Origin: a virus
Length of the DNA: 41,206 nucleotides
Virus record (IMG/VR): IMGVR_UViG_3300046517_000953
Span: 1 to 41,206 of that record
Strand: one strand, 5' to 3'
Part shown: piece after piece, positions 9,342 through 41,206 of the stretch
Numbering within the stretch: position 1 is the first letter of the stretch
How the letters are laid out: each line of letters starts with the position of its first letter
Made by a program: the position numbers and the translations under genes
The notes under the pieces: model-generated
The model's database searches: none
Told to the model about the DNA's origin: nothing
What the model saw: the letters and a program-made list of their open reading frames with translations, nothing else

Positions 9342-9832
9342 CAATGCACCTTTTCGTAGATGTAGGCGGGCAGCGCAGGGCTCGCCTGCACGGTCGGGCC
9401 CTGATATCCGGGAAGATATTTGCAGTCGCCTTTGAGCATGCCGTAAACCATCGTGTCGCGAGTGCCTTCAAGCCCGAGCCGCCGATAGCCCTCGTAGACG
9501 AAACCCATGCGCTGCACCTGCCGCAGCGCCCGGCGGTTGTCCGGCTCGACTTCGGCAGTCAACCGTCGCGCTTGGGAGAATGCCGCCGTGAAGATGGCGC
9601 GCAGAACCCTCCGCGACATGCAGCGAGGGTCAAGGACCAAAATCGTCACCCGGCCCTCGAACCAGAACGGAAACTCGATGGCGAAGATCCCCACGATGTG
9701 ACCTTCGTCATTGCGGGCCCACGCCGAGAACCAGCGCGGGGCCTTGAAGTCGCAGCGGGAGAAATCCACGCGAAGATGCTTGGTGAGTAGATCTTGCGCG
9801 TCTCTCGGGAGATCACCGAACCGGGTTTTCAC
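9341..9832 (-). CDS. GNAT-like acetyltransferase-fold protein in tail module (163 aa)
   Basis: The start is GTG at 9832, overlapping the TGA of the upstream gene as GTGA; no ATG is available until well inside the domain. The fold signature is GNAT-like: beta strands around IVGIFAIEFPFW and VTILVLDPRCMSRRVLRAIF, then ARRLTAEVEPDNRRALRQVQ and RMGFVYEGYRRLGLEG, matching the GNAT C-terminal motif with N-x-x-A, G-F and E-G positions. The acetyl-CoA loop (R/Q-x-x-G-x-G/A) is not obvious, so it may be a structural or degenerate GNAT. GNAT-like proteins at this position, between tail hub and ejection proteins, are known in podoviruses. Substrate cannot be predicted. Confidence 0.78.
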   Translation of the reverse strand: MKTRFGDLPRDAQDLLTKHLRVDFSRCDFKAPRWFSAWARNDEGHIVGIFAIEFPFWFEGRVTILVLDPRCMSRRVLRAIFTAAFSQARRLTAEVEPDNRRALRQVQRMGFVYEGYRRLGLEGTRDTMVYGMLKGDCKYLPGYQGPTVQASPALPAYIYEKVH

Positions 9833-11415
9833 ATCAAGCCTCCCAGTTCGTAGATCACGTCGAGGCCCGAAATCGACAACGTGCAGCCGGAGACGCTGAC
9901 GCGAATACGCGCCGCCCCGACGCGGCCGAGGCCCGTGATGCCCTGCCAGTTCTGCTTGGGCTGGGTGCTCTGCGCCCAGTAGTCCACGTCCCACGTCGCC
10001 GTGTTCCAGACGCCGCCGCCCGTAGGCCCGAGCGTGATTTCAGGCTGGTTGGTCGGCTGCGTATTGTCGTAGTCGACTTCCAGATCCATGAACGGGCGCG
10101 GCAAGCCATCGGTAATGGTGTAGAGCCGCATCATCTTGAAGTTCTTCTTGGCGGCGCTGCGGTAGCTCGACCACGCAAAGCGCACGTCGGCGTTGATCGC
10201 CGCGCCGTTGTCGTTGAGATATTCCGAGCCGCCGAGGTAGATGCCGCCAGTGTCGGTGCCGAAATAAGCGTGGTTGTTGAGCCAGCCCCAGCAGCGCGAC
10301 GGAATGTCGGCCCACTTCATCCAGACGGCTCCGGTCATCAGCCGCACCACCTGCTGGTACTTGCCGCCGCCGAGCGGCATGTTGCAGATCGCGTGGTTGG
10401 TGTGGTGGTTGAGAATGACCTGCCAACCGAAGTCGTCGCGGTGGTTCTTCGACACCCCGTCGAACTCCTGCATGATGCCGAGATCGGACTTGCCGAGCTG
10501 TTCGGTCTCGGCGCGCAGCAACGTCGTCATCGGCACGAAGCCGGTCGAGATCATCAGGTAGAGATCGCCGCCGAAATTGATGAGGCTGTTCTTCGACATT
10601 GGCGCGTCAAAGCGGAACACGCCGACAAGCTGGAAATTGCTGGCGGGATCGACGCCTTGGTAGATCGCGCATTCGCCGTTGGTGGTGAAGATCGCCAGCG
10701 CGTCGTCGAGCCCCGCGCCGCCGTCGATCGACCATGTCGCCATCGCCGCGATGTTGCCGCCGCGCTTGAACAAAGCGTTCAGCGGCAGCAGCAGCAGGGC
10801 CCCGGATTTCTGCTGGACGGGCAGGTAGTACACCGCGAGGTTATCGCTGTCGGCGAACCACAGCCGGTTCATGTGCGAGAGGATCTTGTCGAGCTTCGCC
10901 GGGAGGACCCACGTCGCGCCCGCCGGAGCCGTCACCGCTTCGGCGGCAAACGTGGTGCCATCCCACGAAACGACCCCATCATGGCCGTTGACCATCACGG
11001 TGTAGTCGACGCTGGAGAGGTTGGCGAACGACGTCCATGACCAGTCGTCGCCGCCGTAGGGCCCGGCAGCGATCTGGGCCCCGGCAATGTCGTAGATCTT
11101 TCCGCCCGACGCCGCCGCGAGCTTCTGCGGCGTGCCATAGAACGGGATCAGGGTCGAAATGGGCGTGTTCGCCGCGATCTGCCCCAGCTTGATGTAGCCG
11201 GGCCGCACCGTGATGCGGTCGTCCTCGACGACCCAGTTGGTCAGGATAGAGGCGAGCTGCGGGTCGGCATCGCCGAGTTCGGCGTGGCGAGATAACCCTT
11301 TCAGGGGCGCGCCGACATGCGCCACCCGGGCGGCGGGGCGGCCCTTGTTCAGGGCCCGGGTCGGGGTGCCCCGGGGCTTCTTCAGTTCCAGCAATCCCGA
11401 CGGGGTCATTCTCAT
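9829..11415 (-). CDS. Tail hub/tail tube protein, beta-propeller-like (528 aa)
   Basis: Long beta-rich protein with repeated blade-like segments such as TLIPFYGTPQKLAAASGGKI, SSVDYTVMVNGHDGVVSWDG and DALAIFTTNGECAIYQGVDP, reminiscent of the podoviral tail hub (P22 gp10-like packaged-DNA stabilisation) proteins. It probably plugs and extends the portal and anchors the fibres or the needle. ATG 11415 overlaps the stop of the 140-residue connector gene by ATGA, and its own stop overlaps the GTG of the GNAT-like gene. Length and gene order (connector, hub, then ejection proteins) support the call; the precise equivalence to gp10 is an inference. Confidence 0.8.
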   Translation of the reverse strand: MRMTPSGLLELKKPRGTPTRALNKGRPAARVAHVGAPLKGLSRHAELGDADPQLASILTNWVVEDDRITVRPGYIKLGQIAANTPISTLIPFYGTPQKLAAASGGKIYDIAGAQIAAGPYGGDDWSWTSFANLSSVDYTVMVNGHDGVVSWDGTTFAAEAVTAPAGATWVLPAKLDKILSHMNRLWFADSDNLAVYYLPVQQKSGALLLLPLNALFKRGGNIAAMATWSIDGGAGLDDALAIFTTNGECAIYQGVDPASNFQLVGVFRFDAPMSKNSLINFGGDLYLMISTGFVPMTTLLRAETEQLGKSDLGIMQEFDGVSKNHRDDFGWQVILNHHTNHAICNMPLGGGKYQQVVRLMTGAVWMKWADIPSRCWGWLNNHAYFGTDTGGIYLGGSEYLNDNGAAINADVRFAWSSYRSAAKKNFKMMRLYTITDGLPRPFMDLEVDYDNTQPTNQPEITLGPTGGGVWNTATWDVDYWAQSTQPKQNWQGITGLGRVGAARIRVSVSGCTLSISGLDVIYELGGLM

Positions 11416-21049: not shown

Positions 21050-21207
21050 GTATCCCTCGCCTTCGATTTTACTGGGAGTTGTATTTCAGCCCCTTTTCCC
21101 GTGAGAACAAAACGCGAAAACGTCGCCCATGCGTTATTTCACCTAAACCCATGTCCGATACCGGGCCCGCGAAAGGGCCCTCAGCGGGCCTCGCAATCAA
21201 TCCTAGA

Positions 21208-21240
21208 GGGGTTGACACCTAAACCCTTTCCGTGCTTCAT
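21208..21240 (+). promoter_or_regulatory. Promoter-like element before the AAA+ gene
   Basis: Consensus -35 TTGACA at 21212-21217 inside an AGGGGTTGACA box shared with 22774 and 29605. Seventeen bases downstream lies only a weak -10 (CTTCAT, 21235-21240), so activation or a host sigma variant would be needed. Confidence 0.45.
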
Positions 21241-21298: not shown

Positions 21299-22774
21299 AT
21301 GCTTACCCAAAATACCCAAATTCCGACGGCCTGCCGTGGTCAGGTGCGCTCAATCGTCAAGGCGCATAGTGACTGGCCTGCTTTCCTAGTCGAAAAAGGC
21401 CTGATTAGCGCCAGCGCAAAGAACGCGGACCTGATCGAGTTTGCTTTACGGCACGTCGACTTGATAACCAAAATCAACGCTATCCTATCCCTGAGCCCGC
21501 AAGGTGCGCAAGCGGATGCGCCCGAAACCATGATGGAAGACGATGACACCATGATTGACGAAGCACCCGCAGCACCCGCGCCCAATGCCGGTTTCGAGTT
21601 GGACAATATCTTGGGCACGGTCGATCAACTGCTTTCGCCGCTGGTACGCAAGGAAATCGCGGGCGCGCTCGCGCCTGTCATTGCCGCAGCCAATCGAGGG
21701 CCAATCGAAGTCGAGCGCATTGTGGAAGTCGAGCGCATTGTGGAAGTTGCGCCCGGCGAGGGCCCGCGCATTGCCGCAACTCCAAAGGCGCGCCGTGACA
21801 AGCGCGTACCCTTTCGCACGCTGTTTCCAACGCGTGCGAAGGACGCTTATTTGGATGCGCCTTTGACGCTGTGGACCGGCACGCCTTCGCCTGCGGCCGA
21901 TCCGTTTTACGTTGTGGACCGGGCGCAGATGGCACTTTTGATGACCGCGTTTGAGCGCGGCACCAACGTGTGGCTGGCGGGCCCGGCGGGCACGGGCAAG
22001 AGCACCATGCCGGAACAAGCCGCAGCTATATTGGGCAGGCCTTTCACCAAAATTGGCATGACCTACCAGACCGACGTTGAAACGCTTGTGGGCGGGCCCG
22101 GGATGCGCAACGGCGCAACGCTTTGGGAAGATGGCTCATTGGTGAAAGCCATGCGCCAGCCCGGCATGGTCATCTTGATTGATGAACTCACGATCGCGCC
22201 CGCAGGCGTGCAGGCCATCGTGCAGCTAGTCGCGGATGACCATCGCTCTCTGACCCTGCCAACAGGTGAAGTTGTGAAAGCTGCGGATGGCGCGGTGTTC
22301 GTGGTCGCCGATAACACCTGTGGATCAGGTGACGAAGGCGGGCTCTATGTCGGCACCAACGTATCGAACGCAGCCCTTGTGACGCGGTTCAAGCGGATGA
22401 TTATCGTGGACTACCTTTCGGCGCAGAAAGAAGCGGAAGCCCTCGCCAATCACACGGCATGCCCATTGCCTGCGGCAAAGCACTTGGCCGATTTTGTCGC
22501 GCAATGCCGACGTCAGCCGACGCTTGCAGGCGTGGTGATCTCGCTGCGGCAAATGGTTGGCTTCGTCCAATGCGTTCAAGACGGTTTTTCCGCAAAAGAC
22601 GCTTTCGAAACCACCATTTCAAGCCGCATGCCAGCCACTGAAAAGGCCACGATTGAAGGCCTTTGCAATCTGGCATGGTCAGAGGCTTTTGAGGCTCTGG
22701 TACATAACAAGCCCGCGCCTGCCACGCCTTCTAACAGCGCAGCGGCGAACGCCTTTGCCGACACCCAATATTGA
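21299..22774 (+). CDS. MoxR/CobS-type AAA+ ATPase (491 aa)
   Basis: AAA+ ATPase of the MoxR/CobS kind, expected to remodel a client or insert a metal together with a VWA partner. Residues 226-237 hold the Walker A (LAGPAGTGKSTM), 291-296 the Walker B (VILIDE), 335-340 sensor 1 (VVADNT), and 362-366 a likely arginine finger (TRFKR). The N-terminal 190 residues include a small helical domain (DWPAFLVEKGLISASAKNAD), an acidic linker and IEVERIVEVERIVEV, encoded by an exact 18-bp tandem duplication (21707-21742). A TAAGGA site precedes ATG. It is followed on the same strand by a CobT-like VWA protein, the standard MoxR partner. Codon choice looks different from the late genes, hinting at separate acquisition. 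Confidence 0.88.
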   Translation: MLTQNTQIPTACRGQVRSIVKAHSDWPAFLVEKGLISASAKNADLIEFALRHVDLITKINAILSLSPQGAQADAPETMMEDDDTMIDEAPAAPAPNAGFELDNILGTVDQLLSPLVRKEIAGALAPVIAAANRGPIEVERIVEVERIVEVAPGEGPRIAATPKARRDKRVPFRTLFPTRAKDAYLDAPLTLWTGTPSPAADPFYVVDRAQMALLMTAFERGTNVWLAGPAGTGKSTMPEQAAAILGRPFTKIGMTYQTDVETLVGGPGMRNGATLWEDGSLVKAMRQPGMVILIDELTIAPAGVQAIVQLVADDHRSLTLPTGEVVKAADGAVFVVADNTCGSGDEGGLYVGTNVSNAALVTRFKRMIIVDYLSAQKEAEALANHTACPLPAAKHLADFVAQCRRQPTLAGVVISLRQMVGFVQCVQDGFSAKDAFETTISSRMPATEKATIEGLCNLAWSEAFEALVHNKPAPATPSNSAAANAFADTQY

Positions 22775-22807
22775 GGGGTTGACAATCAACCCCTAGGCCA
22801 TTAAAAC
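22774..22807 (+). promoter_or_regulatory. Inverted repeat with promoter-like boxes after the AAA+ gene
   Basis: AGGGGTTGA (22774-22782), loop CAA, TCAACCCCT (22786-22794) is a perfect 9-bp inverted repeat beginning at the AAA+ stop codon. It contains TTGACA (22779-22784), with TAAAAC 17 bases downstream (22802-22807) as a plausible -10. It may be an operator-controlled internal promoter for the VWA gene. Confidence 0.45.
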
Positions 22808-22852
22808 GAGGGCTCGTTTTAACGCAAAAGCGCGTTGAAACGAGCCCTTTTT
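22803..22852 (+). terminator. Attenuator-like terminator between AAA+ and VWA genes
   Basis: GGGCTCGTTT (22810-22819) pairs with AAACGAGCCC (22838-22847), enclosing a nested AACGC/GCGTT hairpin, followed by five T residues (22848-22852): an intrinsic terminator. The upstream AAAACGAG (22803-22810) can instead pair with CTCGTTTT (22813-22820), which would disrupt the terminator stem. The two foldings are mutually exclusive, as in attenuators. The VWA start is 28 bases downstream. Confidence 0.7.
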
Positions 22853-22879
22853 CTTACTTCTAACCAGAAAGATCAAACA

Positions 22880-24724
22880 ATGTCATATACTTACCCAGAA
22901 GCCCTCTCCGCGCTGGAAAGCATCGCAAACGATTATATCAAGATATTGCGCCCGAATGAGAATGCGCCCGTGCGTCTCAAATGTGACCCCTATGCACAGA
23001 CTGCGTCCGTGACTTGGGAAGCGTGGCAAATCGAAGTGACCATGCCCGTGCGCCCGGCGACGTCGCAGATGTTGCAGGCCGAATTTGAGGACTGGATTGC
23101 CTACATGCTGCACGAGTTAGGCCACCCGACGCACACGAACAAGAGCGCATGGCACCATGCCGTGCGCCTAGGCGTATCGCGCATGGTCAACGCGTTGGAA
23201 GACGTACGGATGGAAAAGGCGCTTATTGCTTCGGGTATCGTGCCCAATGCGCGCCGCGTGCTGTCGCGCCTGATATCGCGCAAAGTTGTGGAAGCCCGCG
23301 CCAATGCATGGAAGCCCAATGCGCGCTCGGAATTTGGCTGGACCGTTTGCGTGCTTGGGCGCGCAGCCAATGGCTATGACATTGACGCTTCGGACCTGTC
23401 ATGGATCAAGGCGCAAATCAAACCGGGCTCAACGGTCGCAACCGTTTTGGGTTGGGCAATGCCAGCCCTTGCGGCATGTCAATCAACATCGGATTGCGTG
23501 ACATTGGCTGAAAAGATCATGGCAGCCCTCAAGACGCCGCAAACCGGCCAGCCCGGCGAAGGCGAAAGCCAGCCCGGCGAAGGCGAAGGCCAGCCCGGCG
23601 AGCAGGACGAAGGCGAGGGCGAGGGCGAAGGCGAGGGCAAGGGCGAGAGCGAGGGCGAGGGCGAGGGTAAGCAGGGAAAGCCCTCAGGTGAGGCTGACGA
23701 GGGCAAGGGCGAGGGCGAGGGCGAGGGCGAGGGAAAAGGCGAGGGCGAGGGCGAACGCGATGGGGAAGCTTCTAATGAGGCTGGAGACACTAACGCCGGA
23801 AAAGGCGGCAAGGGCCACGGCACGGGCGCGACCGACGATGACGAAACACCCATCACGGATGAAAACGATTTGACGGAACATTCGCTCGCCCCTGAGGGCG
23901 AAACCATGGAAGGCGCGGGCGCGAATACCGAAAGGTCCGTGATTGATATCCTGCGTTCCCGCGTCATCACGGACAGCCCTCGCAATGGCCCTAACCCCCG
24001 CATGGGTGTGGCTGGCACGCGTTTGAGGGATTGCGCCGCGAAAGCGTCTAAACAGCGCGCTGTTTTGGCCCGCGCATTGCGGTCCAACGAAACCAACATT
24101 CGGGAAGGCGGCCGCAGGGCCGGGAGACTAGATCGCGGCGCATTGGCGCGGGCCAGCGCGGGCGCGACCAACATTTTTGAACGCCGCACCATTTCCAAGG
24201 GTTTTGACACGGATGTTTGCATATTGCTTGACGCTTCGGGCTCAATGGCGGGCGCGAACATGGCGAGCGCCCTTGAGGTCGGCCTAGTGGTGTCGCAGGC
24301 AGCGGCAAGCGTTGGCGCATCCTGCACGGTCGAAGTGTTCAACTCGCAGGGTTACATCCGAGCAGGCGGGTTGGCTTCGAAGCGCACGCCTAACCCTGCG
24401 GAATTTGGCGCATTGGTCAGCGCAGCCACAGGCGGCACGCCGTTGAGCGCGCATATGGCCCGCGCTGCGGTAAACCAAGCCAAGCGCGCGCCGCAAAAAC
24501 GCCGCGTGCTTTTCGTGGTGACCGATGGCGGCTGCGACTATGGCCCGCAAACAGTCAAGCGCATGGCGAATTATCTGGAACGGTCTTTGGGCACGGTCAT
24601 GGCACACGTTTCGATCGCCACGCCTTTGCAGGGCTCGTTTCGGGCAGAAGTCTGCGTACCCTGCGGCGCAGCCCTTTCGGAAATCGGCCTAGAGCACTTC
24701 GTCAAAGTGCTTCAAGCCCTCTGA
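22880..24724 (+). CDS. CobT-like VWA protein with HExxH zincin motif (614 aa)
   Basis: Partner of the upstream AAA+ ATPase. I choose ATG 22880 (MSYTYPEALSALESIANDYI); an in-frame start at 22835 would lie in the terminator. Domains: residues 65-112 contain YMLHELGHPTHTN with HELGH at 78-82 and, 24 residues later, NALEDVRME, giving a zincin-like HExxH...E set; 222-320 is a Gly-Glu low-complexity linker made of GEGEGEG repeats; 441-614 is a VWA domain with a complete MIDAS (DASGS 451-455, T520, D549 in VVTDGG). Such MoxR-VWA pairs act as chaperone or activation complexes. A metalloprotease activity is plausible but unproved; CobT cobaltochelatase subunits share the general layout. A strong terminator follows the stop. 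Confidence 0.85.
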   Translation: MSYTYPEALSALESIANDYIKILRPNENAPVRLKCDPYAQTASVTWEAWQIEVTMPVRPATSQMLQAEFEDWIAYMLHELGHPTHTNKSAWHHAVRLGVSRMVNALEDVRMEKALIASGIVPNARRVLSRLISRKVVEARANAWKPNARSEFGWTVCVLGRAANGYDIDASDLSWIKAQIKPGSTVATVLGWAMPALAACQSTSDCVTLAEKIMAALKTPQTGQPGEGESQPGEGEGQPGEQDEGEGEGEGEGKGESEGEGEGKQGKPSGEADEGKGEGEGEGEGKGEGEGERDGEASNEAGDTNAGKGGKGHGTGATDDDETPITDENDLTEHSLAPEGETMEGAGANTERSVIDILRSRVITDSPRNGPNPRMGVAGTRLRDCAAKASKQRAVLARALRSNETNIREGGRRAGRLDRGALARASAGATNIFERRTISKGFDTDVCILLDASGSMAGANMASALEVGLVVSQAAASVGASCTVEVFNSQGYIRAGGLASKRTPNPAEFGALVSAATGGTPLSAHMARAAVNQAKRAPQKRRVLFVVTDGGCDYGPQTVKRMANYLERSLGTVMAHVSIATPLQGSFRAEVCVPCGAALSEIGLEHFVKVLQAL

Positions 24725-24746: not shown

Positions 24747-24773
24747 GGGCCCGCAGCAATGCGGGCCCTTTTT
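24747..24773 (+). terminator. Intrinsic terminator of the AAA+/VWA unit
   Basis: GGGCCCGCA (24747-24755), tetraloop GCAA, TGCGGGCCC (24760-24768), then five T residues. The 9-bp GC stem with a GNRA-type loop makes this one of the strongest terminators in the window; it starts 22 bases after the VWA stop. Confidence 0.9.
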
Positions 24774-24910
24774 CATGCCCGCAGGGCTCGCAGGGAAGGG
24801 CCCTGAGGGGTTTAAAATCAACCCCTGCTAGGGTGATGGCCCGCAAGGGTCAAAACGCACAAGCGGGCCCCGCAGGGCCCGTCTAGGGCCCAAGGTTTCT
24901 AATTACCGTC

Positions 24911-25032
24911 GCACGCGCTCGCCCGCACGCGCTCGCCCGCACGCGCTCGGGCGCACGCGCTCGGGCCCGCACGCGCTCGGGCGCACGCGCTCGGGCCCGC
25001 AGGCGCGCGGGCCCGCAGGCGCGCAGGCGCGC
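24911..25032 (+). repeat. Iteron-like direct repeat array
   Basis: Six exact copies of GCACGCGCTCG start at 24911, 24925, 24939, 24953, 24969 and 24983, that is at 14-base intervals with one of 16. Three diverged copies (GCAGGCGCGC) follow at 24999, 25015 and 25023. The regular spacing suggests an initiator-binding array, though replication slippage in GC-rich sequence could also create it. Confidence 0.75.
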
Positions 25033-25318
25033 GGGGGCCCGCGCCCGCACGCACGAGGGCTCGGCCCCTATAAGGATCGACCGGGTTTTTCTAAAAGGAT
25101 CGACCAGGATTTTGAAAAAGGCCCGGGGGAGCACGCCAGCAACCCCACCCCCATCCCCGTCCACACCGGCAGCGTAGGCCCCGGTTACAGAAGGTTACGG
25201 AAGTCACACCACTTCCCTATAGCGCCATACGCGCTCTCCCTATACACTCTACCTATGTATCCATTTCACTTAATAAGAGATTATCTGTAACTCTGTAACC
25301 TCTGAAACAACCCAGTGC

Positions 25319-29587: not shown

Positions 29588-29616
29588 AACATAGCGCATC
29601 AAAAAGGGGTTGACAA
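29588..29616 (-). promoter_or_regulatory. Promoter of polymerase/primase operon (leftward)
   Basis: On the minus strand TTGTCA (complement of 29611-29616), a 17-base spacer and TATGTT (complement of 29588-29593) form a good sigma-70-type promoter 26 bases before the polymerase ATG. Its -35 overlaps that of the rightward early promoter. Confidence 0.65.
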
Positions 29617-35575: not shown

Positions 35576-36118
35576 ATGACTGCCATCAACACTCCTTACG
35601 CGACGCTCTCGTTCGCGAACATCTTCACCCCGCGCCCAAGGGCCGAGGGCGGAGATCCCGTCTACTCCTGCTCGCTTCTCTTTGATCCGGCACAGCAGAA
35701 GTCCCCCGCCTACAAGGCGCTGCAAGACGCCTGCATCGAAGCGGCGCGTAAAGAGTGGGGCGACAATGTCCCGCTCAAGAGCGTCAAGATGCCGTTCCGC
35801 GACTGCGGCGAGAAGTCCTATGACGGTTATCATCCCGGCCATACCTTCATCTCGCCGTGGTCGAAGAACAAGCCGGGCGTGGTCGACACCAACCGGCAGG
35901 ACATTCTCTTGCCGGATGAAGTGTGGTCCGGCCAGCTTGTGCGTGCGAACGTCGTGCCGTTCGCGTGGACGCACACGGGGCGCAAGGGTGTCTCGTTTGG
36001 CCTTAACCACCTACAGATCATCCAATCCGAAGGGCGTCAGCGCCTCGACGGACGCCCCGCTGCCTCGTCGGCGTTCGACGACGGCGAGGTCAAGGAAACC
36101 GAAGGGGTGCCGTTCTGA
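35576..36118 (+). CDS. DUF2815 single-stranded DNA-binding protein (180 aa)
   Basis: ssDNA-binding protein of the DUF2815 type (T7 gp2.5-like OB fold). Signature parts are YATLSFANIFTPRPRAEGGD at the start, YSCSLLFDPAQQ, KSVKMPFRDCGEKSYDGYHP, then SPWSKNKPGVVD and LVRANVVPFAWTHTGRKGVS in the second half. An acidic C-terminus (FDDGEVKETEGVPF) fits the partner-binding tail of such proteins. It has a dedicated promoter and an AGAGGAAC ribosome site. It should coat single strands during replication and work with the DUF2800 nuclease and polymerase. Confidence 0.9.
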   Translation: MTAINTPYATLSFANIFTPRPRAEGGDPVYSCSLLFDPAQQKSPAYKALQDACIEAARKEWGDNVPLKSVKMPFRDCGEKSYDGYHPGHTFISPWSKNKPGVVDTNRQDILLPDEVWSGQLVRANVVPFAWTHTGRKGVSFGLNHLQIIQSEGRQRLDGRPAASSAFDDGEVKETEGVPF

Positions 36119-36447
36119 TGACCAACATCCCCGAAAGGCCCCATCCGGGCGATCTGCTGTCGCTTGCGTTCGAGTTAATCAACGCAAGAGGCTCCGAGTA
36201 CGACAATGCTGGCAGTCTCGAACAAAACTTCCGCGAGGCTGCCGCCGTCGCCACGGTCATCATCGGCAAGGATATCACGCCGCGCGACGTCGCGATGATC
36301 TTGGCGTGCGTCAAGCTGATCCGGTCCAAAAGCGTCCCGGACAAGCTCGATAACTACGTCGACGGAATGAACTACATGGCGTTCGCCGCCTGCTTCGCCG
36401 GGGTCATGCCGTTGAAGCTGTCGGTCGTCAAGCAAGCCGCCGAATGA
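36118..36447 (+). CDS. DUF6378 phage protein (109 aa)
   Basis: Starts on the last base of the previous stop codon. The sequence follows the DUF6378 pattern familiar from phages: ARGSEYDNAGSLEQNFREAA near the start, then DITPRDVAMILACVKLIRSK and DKLDNYVDGMNYMAFAACFA, i.e. R-G-x-x-Y, N-F, D-V-A, K-x-x-R and D-N-Y-x-D-x-x-x-Y-x-A blocks. It is an all-helical protein; a nucleotide-pool role similar to MazG-like folds has been speculated for such layouts, but nothing in the sequence proves it. A membrane peptide gene overlaps its 3' end. Confidence 0.8.
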   Translation: MTNIPERPHPGDLLSLAFELINARGSEYDNAGSLEQNFREAAAVATVIIGKDITPRDVAMILACVKLIRSKSVPDKLDNYVDGMNYMAFAACFAGVMPLKLSVVKQAAE

Positions 36448-40947: not shown

Positions 40948-41206
40948 ATGGATTTCCCCAAGGTCTTTGCGATGAAGTCGGCCCGCGTCAAAGGCGGCTG
41001 GCCTTCGAGGGCCCGGACGCGGTTTTCGTGGTCGTAGAGCACTTGGTCTTGTGGCGTCGCGACTGGCGGCACCTGCGGCGGCTCGACGTAGGGATCGGGC
41101 ACGCCGCCGTTGGCGAGCCAGTCTTGGTACTCGACCCAGTCGCGGTTGGCGGGATCGTTGGGGATGCAGGCCCCGTCGGCGGTGCGGATGACGGAGGCGT
41201 CGGTTG
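40938..41206 (-). CDS. Fibre-associated small protein, C-terminal part (gene split by the contig ends)
   Basis: The 3' part of the 96-residue protein that begins at 149 in the window; it runs from the right edge to TGA at 40938-40940. The C-terminal half contains PQVPPVATPQDQVLYDHENR and RALEGQPPLTRADFIAKTLG, a pattern typical of small phage proteins placed before a fibre gene. The TGA overlaps a possible ATG of the S74 fibre gene. The sequence 41080-41206 duplicates 1-127 and so is counted once in the circular genome. Confidence 0.85.
   Translation of the reverse strand, partial: TDASVIRTADGACIPNDPANRDWVEYQDWLANGGVPDPYVEPPQVPPVATPQDQVLYDHENRVRALEGQPPLTRADFIAKTLGKSIWA
41080..41206. repeat. 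Terminal direct repeat, right copy (circular contig overlap)
   Basis: Exact copy of 1-127. See the left copy; removing one copy gives a circular genome of 41,079 bp with an intact gene across the join. Confidence 0.95.

Follow-up and report, generated by a model that had tools for sequence, protein, structure and literature searches.

Two descriptions of viral systems come closest to the locus analysed here. Jumbo phages of group 2.2 carry a MoxR AAA+ ATPase beside a protein that joins a metallopeptidase domain to a von Willebrand factor A (vWA, here VWA) domain (PMC7824862). CobST clusters occur in phages and archaeal viruses, for example Microcystis phage Mae-Yong1326-1 and cyanophage S-PM2, and the "Peptidase" annotation of the viral CobT partner has been judged mistaken (PMC8651126). 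In cyanophages the pair is core, not sporadic (PMC3037559, PMC8651126). Here we analyse a pair of this kind in a 41,206-nt stretch of viral DNA, IMG/VR record IMGVR_UViG_3300046517_000953 (hereafter the window; coordinates run on the whole window), in which gene S (21299–22774) encodes the AAA+ ATPase and gene T (22880–24724) its VWA partner. The pairing of S and T is already published (PMC7824862, PMC8651126), and the pair in the window belongs to that phage "CobST", or MoxR plus metallopeptidase-vWA, kind. The present analysis adds the contrast in the HExxH motif between phage T proteins and cellular CobT, the accessory exchange of S/T with a DUF932 gene, and the stand-alone occurrence of the S N-terminal domain.

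The window probably represents a complete genome or a circularly permuted one, since it ends in an exact 127-bp terminal direct repeat (1–127 and 41080–41206). S has matches in 589 of the 50,697 phage records searched. In several hundred phages cobS and its partner carry an annotation, and they are reported as auxiliary B12 genes, among others as core genes of cyanophages. In the literature collection searched, no experiments with phage CobS/CobT or on their expression timing came up.

The S and T proteins

The features of T on which the argument rests are the following.

22880–24724, + strand: T, 614 amino acids, comprising a zincin-like domain, an acidic linker and a VWA domain (phrog_1576, 7.7e-23; T alignments)
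23111–23125, + strand: HELGH (T residues 78–82), the HExxH metal-site motif, with H78, E79 and H82 unchanged across 16 diverse T proteins of phages
23189–23215, + strand: NALEDVRME (T residues 104–112), the probable third-ligand region (D108), with N104, D108 and E112 invariant and D108 replaced where HExxH is lost
23546–23833, + strand: acidic Gly/Glu-rich linker of T (residues 223–318), predicted to be disordered (predicted local distance difference test score, pLDDT, below 50; 35 G and 25 E in 96 residues)
24230–24532, + strand: the metal ion-dependent adhesion site (MIDAS) elements of the VWA domain, DASGS (451–455), GGTPL (518–522) and VTDGG (547–551), matched by Foldseek to the Midasin MIDAS and NorD VWA

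Across the 16 T proteins, which reach down to 14% identity with T, the six residues H78, E79, H82, N104, D108 and E112 are the only invariant positions of the N-terminal domain. In the AlphaFold model of T (mean pLDDT 65.9), this domain is predicted with confidence, the acidic linker is disordered and a VWA fold is present. Specifically, the N-terminal domain is modelled as a helix, three strands, a helix (66–85) that carries HELGH and a helix (100–118) that carries NALEDVRME, so that T has both the HExxH motif and a third acidic candidate ligand on the following helix, as is characteristic of zincins. At the motif level, T joins an N-terminal HExxH domain to a VWA domain.

Among named phages with a VWA partner, 12 were sampled and 11 have HExxH, the exception being Pseudomonas phage nickie; for GodonK and Demosthenes, which have it, the comparison covers this first motif only. 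The N-terminal domain of cellular CobT aligns with that of phage T, yet none of the 32 cellular CobT proteins has HExxH at the aligned site, where SMALR, SMALK, SIALK and similar sequences stand instead, and the position of NALED is mostly occupied by DAVEQ. An apparent HExxH in one cellular CobT was set aside, as it sits where the open frame extends upstream, off the aligned site. HExxH and D108 are lost together in phage nickie, in an Acinetobacter plasmid and in cellular CobT. This loss of D108 wherever HExxH is lost agrees with a role of D108 as third metal ligand. Taken together, the motif, the helix order and the correlated loss of HExxH and D108 indicate that the N-terminal domain of T is likely a zincin-like metallopeptidase, and the intact HExxH...D arrangement suggests that "Peptidase" may be the correct label and CobT a misleading one. 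A scan of genome contigs with the T alignment gave 60 pattern matches, none of them a relative.

The VWA domain of T, with its complete MIDAS, gives only weak Pfam matches, to the CobT/CoxE VWA families. By structure, the T model matches the Midasin MIDAS (8.7e-8) and the VWA domain of NorD bound to NorQ (2.4e-7) in PDB, and in the viral library the best matches, which span most of the length, are CobT/VWA proteins of other phages. The ATG at 22880 is kept as start codon in relatives, and the alternative TTG at 22835 falls within a terminator hairpin.

S carries the elements of a MoxR/CobS-type motor, as listed below.

21299–22774, + strand: S, a MoxR/CobS-type AAA+ ATPase of 491 amino acids (Pfam, PHROGs and PDB matches)
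21299–21508, + strand: N-terminal helical domain of S (residues 1–70; pLDDT of the predicted model 81), a separate protein in motor-less relatives
21980–22003, + strand: Walker A, GPAGTGKS (S residues 228–235), with G233 and K234 invariant in the S alignment
22169–22186, + strand: Walker B, VILIDE (S residues 291–296), with D295 and E296 invariant in the S alignment
22304–22315, + strand: sensor 1, VADN (S residues 336–339, with N339), from the S alignment

S matches AAA_5 in Pfam (3e-17), phrog_249 ("porphyrin biosynthesis", 3e-50) in PHROGs and, among PDB chains, CobS/CbbQ/NorQ (1.6e-26 to 2e-20) as well as Midasin. R363 and R417 are also invariant in the S alignment, and judged from its residues the AAA+ active site of S is complete. 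Against six relatives, the ratio of nonsynonymous to synonymous substitution rates (dN/dS) is 0.075–0.116 for S and 0.089–0.200 for T. Because dN/dS lies at 0.075–0.20 and the motifs are conserved in relatives, the two open reading frames (ORFs) are not chance frames and the genes have not decayed; both are intact and under purifying selection.

A first-pass annotation of the window, made from the letters alone, had described a MoxR-type ATPase with complete Walker A, Walker B and sensor 1, paired on the same strand with a VWA protein with a complete MIDAS and oriented opposite to both flanking blocks. The residues of each of these elements could be located, the PHROGs, PDB and Foldseek matches agree with a MoxR/CobS-type ATPase and a VWA partner, and two long + strand ORFs stand between blocks on the − strand. 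That account holds as a description of an ATPase/VWA module; it omitted the zincin-like domain, the terminator-like hairpin between the genes and the published pairing.

Locus exchange and transcription signals

With TerL as anchor, 80 loci were fetched, and the 50 with enough upstream DNA were classified. Among the loci with TerL at least 88% identical, nine have the motor, the N-terminal domain and T, and three more have S and end before T; eight have a DUF932 gene, two of these together with a stand-alone N-domain ORF; and three have a match to the N-terminal domain only. One of the last three, L054, had been considered a motor-less variant and was dropped, its ORF running off the contig end; it is probably a truncated S and is not counted as such a variant. 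S/T and DUF932 occur together in none of the 50 loci. The DUF932 gene (PF06067, 1.5e-38) lies in the S/T slot upstream of TerL in L078, L089, L053, L066, L068, L082 and L087.

Neither T nor the AAA part occurs anywhere in two full-size contigs, G015 (41,980 bp) and G019 (41,513 bp), whose major capsid protein, TerL and portal are 91–93%, 89–90% and 74–77% identical to those of the window. In the group with TerL 66–71% identical, the pair is found in some loci, in the other orientation relative to TerL, and not in others (for example L114), and MW202489 and Pam5 (TerL 41–44% identical) are without it. Since G015 and G019 have the same virion genes without S/T, the virion type does not require the pair. 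By these comparisons S/T is accessory, as the first-pass annotation had supposed, and dispensable for the virion type of the window, which argues against an obligate role in virion assembly. The groups with and without S/T differ phylogenetically, so that an assembly role specific to one lineage keeps a small probability.

Residues 1–70 of S recur as a separate protein of 99–126 amino acids, at the same position, in eight relatives. As the N-terminal domain is fused to the motor in the deeper group of relatives, the simplest reading of the stand-alone form is that the motor and T were lost and the domain kept; independent fusion is possible as another origin. The domain, whose model found no match in a fold search against PDB, may serve in targeting.

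Both blocks that flank S/T lie on the − strand, with TerS, TerL and portal to the left and primase-helicase and PolA to the right. In most of the phages sampled, the pair or an S homologue has replication genes as direct neighbours or no more than a few kb away; this holds for about 10 lineages, represented by S-PM2, nickie, two Rhizobium phages, a Klebsiella phage, a Cobavirinae phage, cr114_1, Bacteroides BS162P1, ICP2, the Acinetobacter plasmid and the window; CRP-810, GodonK, Demosthenes and Whirlwind have no such neighbourhood. In Whirlwind, Listeria LP-114 and cr114_1 (L035, L036 and L039; Mycobacterium, Listeria and crAss-like phages), a protein of 275–303 amino acids without HExxH or MIDAS is encoded near the S homologue.

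Two further genes of the window differ between relatives with and without S/T. A small DUF6378 gene (36118–36447) is present in 6 of 7 large contigs with S/T and in 0 of 4 without, a difference confounded by phylogeny. The protein encoded at 9829–11415, an "amidase" by PHROGs (phrog_5107) whose homologue in relatives is annotated as a phage stabilization protein, is 68–86% identical in relatives with S/T and 54–55% in those without, a larger drop than for most of its neighbours.

The signals around the two genes are as follows.

21207–21217, + strand: AGGGGTTGACA, a promoter-like element upstream of S (exact match; recurs in relatives L006 and L007)
22774–22794, + strand: inverted repeat AGGGGTTGA-CAA-TCAACCCCT with a TTGACA (-35-like) box, upstream of T, kept between S and T in relatives
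22808–22849, + strand: intrinsic-terminator-like hairpin between S and T, 18 pairs with a T-rich tail (−31.7 kcal/mol, z −8.0)
24747–24768, + strand: terminator-like hairpin after T (z −2.4)

Exact AGGGGTTGACA occurs at three sites in the window (21207, 22774 and 29605), against 0.35 expected by chance. Variants of it with hairpins directly behind recur between S and T in relatives, most of which have a hairpin at the equivalent position. Terminator-like matches in the region are no more numerous than in shuffles, so the evidence for termination is conservation and folding energy, not count. The first-pass annotation had given the pair promoter-like boxes and its own transcription unit with one strong terminator. 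The boxes were borne out in that AGGGGTTGACA precedes each gene and recurs in relatives, but the -10 boxes are weak and a sigma-70 scan reported no promoter at S/T. The single unit fares worse: because S and T are separated by the 18-pair hairpin and a second TTGACA element, with another hairpin after T, a common S–T transcription unit is doubtful. We offer it as a suggestion only that each gene may have its own promoter, with transcription of T starting within the 5' arm of the S terminator or beside it. The third AGGGGTTGACA (29605–29615), with a conserved TACAAC behind it, sits between polA on the − strand and rightward replication genes and is kept in L006, L007 and L011. A GC-rich tandem array, CGCACGCGCTCG, with units of about 14–30 bp, stands just 3' of T (24910–25052).

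Candidate roles of the pair

With about even confidence, we propose that S/T is an ATP-driven, MIDAS-guided metallopeptidase or remodelling machine with an optional, early-stage phage function. The genes S and T are adjacent and are conserved together in relatives. By analogy with NorQ–NorD (PMC13036017), an S hexamer would receive at its pore the VWA domain of T, whose MIDAS metal would hold a client or adaptor by an acidic residue; movement powered by ATP would then present or remodel the client. The zincin domain, on its flexible acidic linker, would cleave that client, which, to go by the gene neighbourhoods and the accessory status, would be a host or replication-stage protein and not a capsid protein. 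A more tentative extension, to which we give about one chance in three, holds that phage "CobST" pairs in general may be ATP-driven metalloproteases and not B12 enzymes, that this family may be the source of cellular CobT, or have a common ancestor with it, the link being a zincin domain that lost its HExxH...D site, and that in the genus of the window the pair may be exchangeable cargo swapped with DUF932, an N-terminal targeting domain surviving alone after loss of motor and protease.

Several observations weigh against the proposed protease. The N-terminal domain of T matches no recognised peptidase family in Pfam and, compared with PDB by sequence, has no meaningful match; the structure matches listed for the T model (Foldseek, PDB) are all to VWA domains; and the loss of HExxH in two mobile-element lineages indicates that catalysis is dispensable there.

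One alternative is a non-proteolytic MoxR–VWA remodeller: S/T would remodel or metallate a client like NorQD, CbbQO or RavA-ViaA, and the HExxH domain would merely bind metal or protein. The VWA and AAA matches to NorD/NorQ, CbbQ and Midasin, the VWA part kept without the metal site in the T proteins of nickie and Acinetobacter, and the related architecture of cellular CobT without HExxH all speak for it. However, all the other aligned T proteins keep HExxH and D108 without exception, a constancy difficult to account for unless metal chemistry is involved, and we regard this explanation as unlikely, at something over one chance in five. The relation of S to CobS raises a different prospect, in which CobST recruits the host CobN and raises cobalamin (proposed in PMC8651126). 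Some phage T proteins (CRP-810) match TIGR01651 at 179 bits, the N-terminal domains of phage T and cellular CobT align, and a B12-dependent-type ribonucleotide reductase lies above cut-off in 1 of 26 S/T phage records. Yet S scores 52.1 bits against TIGR01650 (CobS), under the curated cut-off of 558.55, whereas a plasmid-borne cellular CobS reaches 584.8 bits, and the window has no match to TIGR01651 (CobT) at 1e-5. CobN was found neither in the window nor in any of the 26 S/T-bearing records, a search that covered these records, and the window showed no cobalamin genes; NrdJ is absent from the window and its clade, and an Rfam scan of the window gave no match, hence no cobalamin riboswitch. 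By the curated models S/T is not an ordinary cobaltochelatase. The first-pass annotation had named two outcomes that would speak against its account, an ordinary CobS/CobT set with cobalamin genes nearby and a non-functional gene; with S far under cut-off, no CobN and low dN/dS, neither was found. Together with HExxH, present in phage T and not in cellular CobT, these results make a cobaltochelatase helper very improbable.

A chaperone-protease for virion assembly or maturation, with structural proteins processed as heads or tails are built, has been proposed for jumbo phages on the same architecture and on the MoxR-vWA system of Acidianus two-tailed virus (PMC7824862). The pair adjoins TerS in the window, as such a role might suggest, but G015 and G019 have the same virion gene set without it, and the corresponding slot of other relatives, as well as MW202489 and Pam5, is likewise without the pair. 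We therefore consider an assembly role improbable, at roughly one chance in seven. Counter-defence or interphage competition through proteolysis of a host defence or rival-phage protein, which the first-pass annotation had suggested, would be a special case of the proposed ATP-driven protease. Accessory status with DUF932 exchange at one locus is typical of host-interaction cargo, and homologues occur on plasmids, some of them phage-like. On the other hand, PADLOC gave no match on the window, no defence partner gene or VMAP-type component was seen there, and the pair is core in cyanophages (PMC3037559, PMC8651126). Specific support for that suggestion did not emerge, and we hold it to be quite unlikely, only marginally above the assembly role.

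If T-type partners are working metallopeptidases, the B12 annotation points a considerable share of viral ecology in the wrong direction, and a phage-encoded ATP-driven protease becomes testable. The close relatives with and without S/T provide a natural experiment for finding the target of the pair.

Comparison with known systems

Like the vWA-MoxR-VMAP ternary conflict systems (PMC7159879), S/T has a MoxR and vWA core; unlike them, it has no VMAP-type third component beside it, the flanks being TerS and primase-helicase. NorQ–NorD and CbbQ–CbbO (PMC13036017; PDB 9qh6, 6l1q), compared by their AAA and VWA domains only, share these folds and likely the motor principle with S/T, whereas the matches examined showed no HExxH domain. 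Cellular CobS/CobT (TIGR01650/TIGR01651) is likewise an AAA plus VWA pair, and the CobT N-terminal domain aligns with the zincin-like domain of the phages; it differs in the SMALR/SMALK-type sequence that replaces HExxH, and the window proteins fall far under its cut-offs.

The two viral systems are closer. The jumbo-phage pair (PMC7824862; ASV44729/ASV44728), likened here by its described architecture, also places a MoxR ATPase beside a vWA protein whose N-terminal domain is a metallopeptidase, whereas the phage of the window has a genome of 41 kb and relatives with the same virion and no pair. Viral CobST (PMC8651126) has adjacent S and T as in the window, and the pair of Mae-Yong1326-1 shows 31–33% overall identity with HExxH in both. 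Unlike that study, which rejects the peptidase label, we find that the intact HExxH...D of the window T may speak for it.

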